A stretch of 64,000 nt of DNA from the NCBI GenBank assembly GCA_020723805.1, contig DYID01000016.1, positions 21,654-85,653 of the forward strand, in the 5' to 3' direction. Under the pieces are notes generated by a model that was not told where the DNA came from, did not search any database, and saw nothing but the letters and a program-made list of their open reading frames with translations. A program made the position numbers and the translations under genes. Source of the stretch: Anaerolinea sp. (lineage in GTDB: Bacteria > Chloroflexota > Anaerolineae > Anaerolineales > Villigracilaceae). Below are positions 8,614 through 11,427 of this stretch, one piece after another. How positions within the stretch are numbered: position 1 is the first letter of the stretch; each line of letters starts with the position of its first letter.

Positions 8614-9288
8614 ATGGAAGAAAAAGCCCCCCTCTTATTGACCATCGCCGTCCTCGGCGGCACCGGCAAGGAAGGCAAAGGACTCGCCTACCGCTGGGCA
8701 AAAGCAGGTTACAAGGTCATCATCGGCTCACGCACCCCCGAAAAAGCCGTCACCGCCGCCTCTGAAATCATCGAACGGCTGGAGGGATCTTCCTCGGTGG
8801 TGGGCGCCTCGAACCTCGAAGCCGCCCAGCAGGCGGACATCGTCGTGCTGACCGTGCCGTATGCCGCGCACAAATCCACGCTCGAAAGCGTGAAGGATGC
8901 GCTCAAAGGCAAACTGCTCATTGACGTCACCGTGCCGCTCGTGCCGCCCAAAGTGACCAAAGTGCAAATGCCGCCGGCCGGCTCCGCCGCACAGGAAGCG
9001 AAACAAATCCTTGGCGAGGGCGTGGAGGTCTGCGCCGCGTTCCAAAATATCTCTCACGAACATCTGCTCACCGATGAAGATGTGGAGTGCGACGTGCTGG
9101 TCACCGGCACATCCAAAGAAGCCCGCGCCGAAACCCTCAAACTCGTCGAAGCCGCCGGGCTCAAGGGCTGGGACGCCGGTCCCATCGAGAATTCCGTCGT
9201 CGTGGAGGGACTGACCAGCGTGCTGATCAACATCAACAAGCAATACGGCTCCACTCATGCGGGAATTAAGATCACGGGTGTAAAATAA
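8614..9288 (+). CDS. npdG: NADPH-dependent F420 reductase (F420H2:NADP+ oxidoreductase)
   Basis: 224 residues. It transfers hydride between F420H2 and NADP+. The N-terminal Rossmann motif GGTGKEGKG (15-23) and IGSR after the second strand fit the NADP 2'-phosphate pocket of Fno/NpdG. The middle QNISHEHL and the C-terminal HAGIKITG are family hallmarks. The ATG at 8614 has a good AAGGAG. It heads the F420 region of the window (cofE at 10624, cofD/cofC at 18269). The MNT antitoxin gene begins 4 nt after its stop, and a diverged copy of this gene's 3' end recurs at 9946-9990. Confidence 0.9.
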   Translation: MEEKAPLLLTIAVLGGTGKEGKGLAYRWAKAGYKVIIGSRTPEKAVTAASEIIERLEGSSSVVGASNLEAAQQADIVVLTVPYAAHKSTLESVKDALKGKLLIDVTVPLVPPKVTKVQMPPAGSAAQEAKQILGEGVEVCAAFQNISHEHLLTDEDVECDVLVTGTSKEARAETLKLVEAAGLKGWDAGPIENSVVVEGLTSVLININKQYGSTHAGIKITGVK

Positions 9289-9292
9289 AAAT

Positions 9293-9607
9293 ATGAGCAA
9301 AATCAAGGTGAAAATTCCCAAAAAACAAATTGCCGATTTCTGCGAACGTTGGAAGGTAAAACAGTTCGCGCTGTTCGGTTCGGTGTTGAGAGATGATTTT
9401 CGCCCTGACAGCGACATTGACGTTTTGGTTTCGTTTTCACCGGACGCACCATGGAATTTGTTCGATTTCGTTACCATGCAAGAGGAACTGCAAAAACTGT
9501 TTGGGCGCCATGTGGACTTTGTCGAAAAGGAAGGTCTTAAAAATCCTTTCCGAAAACAGAGTATTTTGAACAGCATGAAGGTTATCTATGAAGCCGAACG
9601 AGCGTGA
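9293..9607 (+). CDS. MNT-type nucleotidyltransferase antitoxin, module 1
   Basis: 104 residues. A minimal nucleotidyltransferase with the signature G29-S30 ... D41-x-D43 (FGSVLRDDF, SDIDVLV). In characterised MntA/HepT pairs this protein neutralises the HepT RNase by adding AMP groups to it. It starts 4 nt after npdG and its 3' end overlaps the HepT start by 20 nt, the usual arrangement of these two-gene modules. No separate promoter is evident, so it may be expressed with npdG. Confidence 0.85.
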   Translation: MSKIKVKIPKKQIADFCERWKVKQFALFGSVLRDDFRPDSDIDVLVSFSPDAPWNLFDFVTMQEELQKLFGRHVDFVEKEGLKNPFRKQSILNSMKVIYEAERA

Positions 9608-9941
9608 TGTCTCCTACCTGTGGGATATGCTCGAAGCTGCCAGGAATATCGGAAAATTCCTTACAGGGGTAAAGTACGGAACGTATTCCAAAAATAAGAT
9701 GATCCAGTCCGCAGTGGAGCGCCAGTTGGAAATTATTGGCGAGGCAGCCAAGCGTGTCTCTAATGAATTCAAGGAGGCGCATCCTGAAATTCCATGGAAA
9801 AACATCATCGGCCTTCGCAACATTTTGGCGCACGAATATGGGGAAGTGAGGGTCGACCGTATCTGGTTGATTGCTACAACAAGCGCAAAAGAACTAACAA
9901 CCTTGCTCAAGCCCCTTGTGCCAAAAATGAAAGCAAAATAA
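9588..9941 (+). CDS. HepT-like RNase toxin (DUF86), module 1
   Basis: 117 residues, all-helical HEPN fold. The RNase motif Rx4HxY is intact: R77, H82, Y84 within RNILAHEYG. HEPN toxins of this family cleave RNA and are inhibited by their MNT partner. The gene overlaps the antitoxin gene by 20 nt. A similar second module lies immediately downstream. The motif EIIGEAAKR before the active site is the family's conserved second helix. Confidence 0.85.
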   Translation: MKPNERDVSYLWDMLEAARNIGKFLTGVKYGTYSKNKMIQSAVERQLEIIGEAAKRVSNEFKEAHPEIPWKNIIGLRNILAHEYGEVRVDRIWLIATTSAKELTTLLKPLVPKMKAK

Positions 9942-9945
9942 CCCG

Positions 9946-9990
9946 ATGCCCTCCATGTCCACGGGCGTCAAGATAACCGGCGTAAAATAA
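9946..9990 (+). pseudogene. npdG: Relic of a second npdG 3' end
   Basis: Reading to the TAA at 9988-9990, the last codons translate STGVKITGVK, matching the npdG terminus (AGIKITGVK). The nine codons aligned back from the stop differ from npdG mostly at third positions, with one conservative Ile/Val change. Both stops are followed by exactly 4 nt and then the ATG of an MNT gene. This indicates a truncated remnant of a diverged npdG copy rather than chance. Confidence 0.75.
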
Positions 9991-9994
9991 GAGC

Positions 9995-10297
9995 ATGAAC
10001 AAATTCGAAGAACTCACCAAACAAATTGTGCCAATTCTCAAACCATATGTCAGTCGAATCTCTGTATTCGGCTCCTATGTGCGCGGCGAAGAAACTCCCG
10101 AAAGCGATATTGACATCTTGGTTCGCCTCAAACCCGCCGACCGCCGCCCCAGACTCGGTTTGAAGTTTTTCGGACTGCAAGATGAATTAAAAAAATTGAT
10201 TGGACGCGAGGTGGATTTAGTCACTGAAGAAGGACTTAGCCCTTATATTCGCCCTTATATCGAAAAGGAAAAGGTCGTTTTGTATGAAGAAGGATGA
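9995..10297 (+). CDS. MNT-type nucleotidyltransferase antitoxin, module 2
   Basis: 100 residues. The nucleotidyltransferase signature is intact (G26-S27 and D38-x-D40 in FGSYVRGEE ... SDIDILV). It is clearly diverged from module 1 in sequence, so this is not a recent tandem duplication. It starts 4 nt after the npdG relic, mimicking the npdG-module 1 junction. It overlaps the following HepT gene by 14 nt. Confidence 0.85.
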   Translation: MNKFEELTKQIVPILKPYVSRISVFGSYVRGEETPESDIDILVRLKPADRRPRLGLKFFGLQDELKKLIGREVDLVTEEGLSPYIRPYIEKEKVVLYEEG

Positions 10298-10619
10298 TTC
10301 GGTCTATCTTCATCACATCTTGGATGCCATCCATCGTATCGAAACGTATACCCAAGGCATTTCCAAAGAGACATACATGCAAAACGGCCTTCTTCAGGAT
10401 GGGGTTGTGCGGCAATTGGAGATCATAGGCGAGGCAAGCAACAACATCTCGGAGGAATTTCAGGATAAACATTCCGAAATTCCATGGGGGCAAATCATCA
10501 GCCTGCGCAATCGAATTGTACATGCCTATTTCGACATTAACCTTGAAATTACCTGGGATATTGTTCACGGCGACATTCCAGAATTGAAGCGGCAGATTGA
10601 ACGAATCTTGTCATCCTAG
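10284..10619 (+). CDS. HepT-like RNase toxin (DUF86), module 2
   Basis: 111 residues, HEPN/DUF86 fold. The Rx4HxY motif is intact as R75, H80, Y82 in RNRIVHAYF, and the REIIGEA-like helix (RQLEIIGEAS) is present. It is paired with the MNT gene at 9995. cofE starts 4 nt after its stop, so the two toxin-antitoxin modules sit between npdG and cofE without breaking either gene. Confidence 0.85.
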   Translation: MKKDDSVYLHHILDAIHRIETYTQGISKETYMQNGLLQDGVVRQLEIIGEASNNISEEFQDKHSEIPWGQIISLRNRIVHAYFDINLEITWDIVHGDIPELKRQIERILSS

Positions 10620-10623
10620 CCAT

Positions 10624-11427
10624 ATGCCCCTCACCCTCACCCCCCTCGCGCACATCCCCCTCATCCGCCACGGCGACAACCTGGCGGATATTCTTGTATC
10701 AGCCCTGCGCGCGAACGATATCCAACTCGCCGACGGCGACATCCTGGTCGTCACCTCCAAAATCGTCAGCAAAGCCGAAGGGCGGATGGTAAACCTTGCC
10801 ACGGTCACGCCCTCGCCGCGCGCCCTCGAACTGGCGGAACAAACCCAAAAAGACCCGCGCCTCGTTGAACTCGTTTTGCAAGAAAGCGCCGAAATCCTGC
10901 GCACACGCCCCGGCACCATCATCGTCGAGCATCGTCTCGGCTTCGTCTGCGCCAACGCGGGGATTGACCATTCGAATGTGTCCCCCACCCCTAACTCCCC
11001 TCCCCCAATATTGGGGGAGGGGCTGGGGGTGGGGGGTGAAGAGTGGGTCCTGCTCCTTCCGCAAGACCCAGACCTCTCGTCCAGAAAGATGCGGGATGAG
11101 ATTCAATCCAAAACCGGAAAACACATCGGCGTCATGATCATTGACTCGCACGGACGCGCTTGGCGCATCGGCACGGTCGGCGTGTGCATCGGATTGAGTG
11201 GCATCCCCGCTGTGGTGGACGAACGCGGCTGGAAGGACTTGTTCGGCTACGAGTTGAAAATCACTATCGTCGGCGTGGCAGACGAGCTCGCCGCCGCCGC
11301 CTCGCTCGTCATGGGGCAAGCCGCCGAAGGCACGCCCGCCGTCCACGTGCGCGGCTTTCCGTATCCGTTGCGCGAAGGCTCGCTCAAGGAACTGCTCCGC
11401 CCCAAAGAGCAGGATATGTTTCGATAA
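10624..11427 (+). CDS. cofE: Coenzyme F420-0:L-glutamate ligase
   Basis: 267 residues. The enzyme adds glutamate to F420-0, GTP-dependently. Family motifs are DILVVTSKIVSKAEG (39-53), NAGIDHSNV (111-119), LLLPQDPD (143-150), HIGVMIIDSHGR and WRIGTVGVCIG. Between NAGIDHSNV and the LLLPQDPD strand there is an extra stretch of about 19 residues (120-138, Pro/Gly-rich) encoded by a palindromic repeat; known relatives run directly from SNV to the LLP strand. The reading frame is kept, so the enzyme is probably functional with a surface loop. ATG 10624 follows the toxin gene closely. Confidence 0.9.
   Translation: MPLTLTPLAHIPLIRHGDNLADILVSALRANDIQLADGDILVVTSKIVSKAEGRMVNLATVTPSPRALELAEQTQKDPRLVELVLQESAEILRTRPGTIIVEHRLGFVCANAGIDHSNVSPTPNSPPPILGEGLGVGGEEWVLLLPQDPDLSSRKMRDEIQSKTGKHIGVMIIDSHGRAWRIGTVGVCIGLSGIPAVVDERGWKDLFGYELKITIVGVADELAAAASLVMGQAAEGTPAVHVRGFPYPLREGSLKELLRPKEQDMFR
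10982..11036. repeat. Palindromic element inserted in-frame in cofE
   Basis: A perfect 26-bp palindrome (10997-11022) with half-site CCCCTCCCCCAAT is extended by imperfect C-rich/G-rich arms to about 55 bp. It codes in-frame for roughly 19 extra residues of CofE. The type is the intergenic C-rich/G-rich hairpin common in bacterial genomes, here inside a gene. Confidence 0.8.

Follow-up and report, generated by a model that had tools for sequence, protein, structure and literature searches.

What is the origin of the short npdG-like stretch that lies between two toxin-antitoxin modules in the genome of an uncultured Anaerolineales bacterium? In the window, the whole 64,000-nucleotide stretch of DNA that was analysed, the forward strand carries npdG, MNT1/HepT1 (9293–9941), MNT2/HepT2 (9995–10619) and cofE, in this order. 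The first gene, npdG (8614–9288; TIGR01915, 216 bits, cut-off 149.8), is native to the genus and encodes a full-length NADPH-dependent F420 reductase. The last, cofE (10624–11427; TIGR01916, 288.6 bits), encodes F420-0:L-glutamate ligase. Between them, MNT1 (9293–9607; PF01909, 7.7e-21) and MNT2 (9995–10297; PF01909, 1.9e-17) are MntA-type antitoxin genes with the GSX10DXD motif, and HepT1 (9588–9941; PF01934, 1.7e-25) and HepT2 (10284–10619; PF01934, 4.7e-31) encode HEPN RNase toxins with RX4HXY, present as RNILAHEY and RNRIVHAY. The translations and Pfam matches thus pair an MNT protein with a HEPN protein in both modules, as in the HepT/MntA type VII systems. Scores of 38–53.5 bits lie below the NCBIfam equivalog cut-off for MntA/HepT (60 bits; MNT1 reaches 49 bits with NF047752), and we treat the pairs as family-level relatives of HepT/MntA without calling them equivalogs. 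Toxicity of HepT and adenylylation of its tyrosine by MntA are predicted.

The sequence-only reading had described the 45 bp before MNT2 as an in-frame NpdG-like terminus with a TAA stop. The sequence and translation are exact: 9946–9990 reads ATG CCC TCC ATG TCC ACG GGC GTC AAG ATA ACC GGC GTA AAA TAA, translated as MPSMSTGVKITGVK and a stop, and the real npdG ends in GSTHAGIKITGVK with its stop at 9288. The resemblance, however, extends over only about 21 nt (GVKITGV; 9964–9984), the counterpart of the GIKITGV core at 9262–9282 in the real npdG tail. The part at 9946–9963 (MPSMST) shows no resemblance to its npdG counterpart (GSTHA), and the junction sequence CCCG ATGCCCTCCATGTCCACG (9942–9963) is not npdG-like. 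The start of cofE, considered as a source of 9946–9963, matches at 12/21 nt with a null of about 0.05 and was rejected. An independent, unprompted repeat detection reported a 45-nt direct repeat, 9260–9304 and 9962–10006, with 76% identity. In the nine matching codons, eight of nine residues are equal and 6 nt differ, five of them at third positions, in agreement with the earlier reading; such an excess has a chance of about 0.02 under neutral drift.

We asked if the match is better than chance. With the promoter part removed (GVKIT against GIKIT), 4 of 1.63 million positions score equally, npdG and the relic among them (p 2.5e-6). When 864 −10-like sites are scored at the offset of the relic, a value above 12 occurs only at npdG and at the relic itself, the next best reaching 12 compared with 23. 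A profile of 86 other npdG tails gives the relic p 1–3e-6 per position. The match therefore beats chance, with p about 2e-6 at the anchored position, and an estimate that generously allows for ~200 comparable spacers and gene ends per window stays below 0.001. A DNA-only profile of npdG tails is weak at the relic (nhmmer E 1.0–2.6 in 0.8 Mb), so the case depends on agreement at the coding level in the position where it is expected. Of 62 compared loci around other MNT/HepT modules, none contains a G[IV][KR]ITG relic, and none has npdG or cofE. We regard the 21-nt npdG-derived relic as real: at the coding level it is, beyond chance, a partial copy of the end of an intact neighbouring gene, placed where two modules meet.

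The stop codon and the gap after it have a different meaning. The TAA is followed by exactly 4 nt before the MNT start at both places, which had been read as npdG heritage but is better described as promoter geometry. In leaderless genes, those of Chloroflexi included, TANNNT has been reported about 12 bp upstream of the start (PMC3160421). In the window, TAAAAT stands 6 nt before the ATG of MNT1 (9281–9286), where it runs across the final codons and the stop of npdG, and 6 nt before the ATG of MNT2 (9983–9988), with C at −1. Both boxes fit the leaderless geometry exactly, and thus the stop and 4-nt gap are not evidence of npdG descent. This type of −10 box is widespread in the genome, and it is also seen ahead of MNT genes that are not close to npdG. 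In an 815-kb part of the genome to which the window belongs (open frames of at least 90 codons), the counts of TATAAT at spacings 0–10 before ATG are 0, 0, 0, 0, 0, 0, 10, 12, 2, 4 and 3, an enrichment mainly at 6 or 7 nt; of the TANNNT sites at spacing 6 in the same 815 kb, 61% have C at −1. The exact GTAAAATAANNNN-ATG pattern occurs three times in the 3.69-Mb genome, twice at the npdG-cofE locus; the third GTAAAATAANNNNATG site is at G000:C39:71553-71568 (L209). Upstream of MNT genes elsewhere in the family, a recurrent box appears as GGTGTAAAATAAGGGC-ATG (L034), GAAGTAAAATAAGCGC-ATG (L055) and TATAATTCAAAC-ATG (L038). We suggest that the TAA and 4-nt gap are part of a putative leaderless promoter of MNT2 (TAAAAT, 6 nt, ATG), and that at the real npdG the same box, made from the last codons of npdG, would serve MNT1. 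Promoter activity of the MNT2 box is likely from this geometry. More generally, where a stop codon precedes a gene by a short, constant distance, the arrangement may reflect a leaderless promoter and not a fossil. A 4-nt spacing also recurs between 9941 and 10624, from the HepT1 TAA to the ATG of the mini-frame, from the TAA of the mini-frame to the ATG of MNT2 and from the HepT2 TAG to the ATG of cofE; translational coupling is possible.

Comparison with relatives shows that the site is usually empty. Among 152 genomes of the family, npdG was found in 136 and cofE in 130. In most relatives npdG lies directly before cofE, with a gap mostly of 6–138 nt in the loci read, and we take npdG-cofE to be the ancestral order of the family. 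G014, the nearest relative by npdG (93% amino acid identity) and by cofE (about 83%), has no module at the site. The earlier reading had called for a genome with npdG directly before a module-2 pair, and one of the 152 has this arrangement: G021, of another genus, with the order npdG-MNT2-HepT2-cofE. Its HepT2 is the best match in the family to that of the window, and the pair shares 66% amino acid identity with module 2, the next best 59%. The split uniting window and G021 receives 99% UFBoot without outgroups and 63% with distant outgroups. The npdG of G021 ends in GVEEK and a stop, followed by a 33-nt gap. In a third genus, G162 carries a decayed module 1 directly after npdG (TAA-CGAC-ATG). 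This remnant includes both ends of MNT1 and, as the alignment shows, the final part of HepT1; its best match among all loci compared is module 1 of the window (74% over 115 nt, E 4.6e-13). Thus, relatives linked to npdG exist for both modules, in a different genus for each. Intact module relatives read elsewhere are not near npdG. When the order was searched for more modules beside npdG, strong matches to HepT2 outside the family came from two genomes, and npdG and cofE were not found in the surrounding stretches examined. A plasmid origin of module 2 was considered and set aside, as all matches were below 60% identity.

Other insertions were seen in the same region. The npdG-cofE spacer of seven genomes (L070, L091–L096; partial in L101) holds a gene of the GxxExxY type of PD-(D/E)XK proteins (PF13366, 1.9e-39 for the L092 copy), mostly between the inverted repeats AATCCGCAGATT... 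and ...AATCTGCGGAT, indicating that the site receives other small genes too. In L015 (G019), the spacer encodes a four-helix protein of the 23S rRNA intervening-sequence type (PF05635) between repeats of the form GATCAGTGATTAGT. Within cofE of the window, an in-frame insert, SPTPNSPPPILGEGLGVGGEEW, follows NAGIDHSNV (10963–11040) and is palindromic at the DNA level; relatives have other inserts or none at this point (segment of 18–39 residues), as with palindromic elements inside coding genes.

Based on these observations, we propose that 9946–9990 is a recombination seam at which two npdG-linked modules were joined, the relic marking the join; we give this reading a probability of roughly 0.6. 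An MNT/HepT module would have settled directly behind npdG in some lineages, the module-2 type in the genus of G021 and the module-1 type in the lineage of G162. In the lineage of the window, two such units would then have come together, and the final codons of a second npdG (GVKITGV) would have stayed behind between HepT1 and MNT2. Homologous pairing in npdG or cofE on one side, with an illegitimate join on the other, is the likely mechanism. Adjacency to the likely promoter of MNT2 has probably kept the relic in place, and its position at the border of the MNT2 box would explain why only this piece of npdG remains.

The proposal that module 2 arrived by recombination with the npdG tail of a related lineage gains from the relic and the sister module in G021, but no donor tail was identified and module 2 is the newcomer only by a lean. 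Among the npdG tails of the family, none closely matches the relic; the best agrees at 18/21 nt. Contrary to expectation, the npdG ends of G021 and of the window agree with the relic equally well (15/21 each), and G014, without a module, reaches 17/21. Codon comparison, with codon 2 left out and genus frequencies mixed with overall frequencies, fits the relic about 10 times better to the genus of G021 than to the host genus (log10 likelihood −3.30 vs −4.37); for the current npdG tail the values are −4.62 and −3.45. ACC occurs in 5/5 tails of the genus of G021 vs 1/15 of the host genus, the exception being G014. A search for a donor tract in npdG and cofE revealed no clear foreign block, with G014 nearest overall in both. 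We lean, without conviction, towards module 2 as the later arrival.

The order may have been the reverse, with npdG and module 2 resident, the relic being the tail of this npdG, and module 1 later bringing the tail that now completes npdG. Such an order would account for the four codons, ATA ACC GGC GTA, that the sister genome G014 shares with the relic, and for the fall in identity between the npdG genes of window and G014 to 69% in the last 42 nt after 95% just before; as a module-1 unit behind npdG existed in the lineage of G162, either module could be the newcomer. The current tail is nevertheless closest to same-genus genomes and is favoured as native by the codon preferences above, and it is the tail of G014 that stands apart, also from those of several other genomes. 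As npdG tails are generally variable, we rejected replacement by module 1 as the cause of this divergence, and consider the reverse order unlikely. Somewhat less probable still is that module 2 and its promoter came without any npdG sequence, the likeness combining a promoter coincidence (GGYGTAAAATAA) with a GVKIT that arose by chance immediately before it. Boxes like GGTGTAAAATAA do occur at equal spacing ahead of MNT genes remote from npdG, as in L034, and the DNA-only profile is not significant, but chance must then also supply GVKIT in the same register, the third-position differences and a site inside the npdG-cofE interval.

Two further explanations are very improbable. Tandem duplication of the npdG tail and module, with later divergence of both modules, agrees with their same order and with a repeat extending into the start of the MNT gene. 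The modules, however, share only 39–41% amino acid identity, compared with 76% for the untranslated tail, too little for a recent duplication; each has a closer relative in another genus, and the 99% split of module 2 with G021 strongly disfavours this origin. The ends of genes are common attachment sites, and module 1 is flanked by direct repeats, as would follow from site-specific integration into the 3′ end of npdG. Against this, none of the genes from npdG to cofE encodes an integrase, and no second tail follows the single modules of G021 or G162, or module 2 of the window. In a broader form of the recombination reading, the npdG end would be a dock that can be used again and again. The conserved codons for ITGV (GGYGTA) are similar to the upstream part of MNT promoters (GGYGTAAAAT); modules would fuse there by microhomology, repeatedly and in several genera, and the terminal codons of npdG would thereby become a leaderless promoter of the module. 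We consider this doubtful.

As genome archaeology the proposed seam is modest but real. It preserves, in the sequence itself, a trace of how toxin-antitoxin modules that stand alone and lack mobility genes may build up at a single place on the chromosome, through recombination anchored in a conserved host gene. Like the HepT/MntA type VII system (PMC7641770), the modules have the antitoxin before the toxin, overlapping genes, PF01909/PF01934 and the GSX10DXD and RX4HXY motifs; they differ in that two divergent modules stand in tandem behind an F420 gene. The window shares with the leaderless TANNNT genes (PMC3160421) a −10 box 6 nt before ATG, without a leader, but in this case the box lies partly within the final codons of npdG and of the relic. 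Events that combine homology at one end with an illegitimate join at the other are known from transformation and have been proposed for the orphan immunity arrays of the Vibrio cholerae type VI secretion system (T6SS; PMC5361080). There, too, successive modules are joined at a homologous anchor, and the scar is a gene 3′ end that has been moved back. This kind of scar is already known, and the seam in the window would be one more case. In V. cholerae the displaced genes are effectors, whereas in the window it is a housekeeping neighbour that gave rise to the scar, and the two modules are complete.
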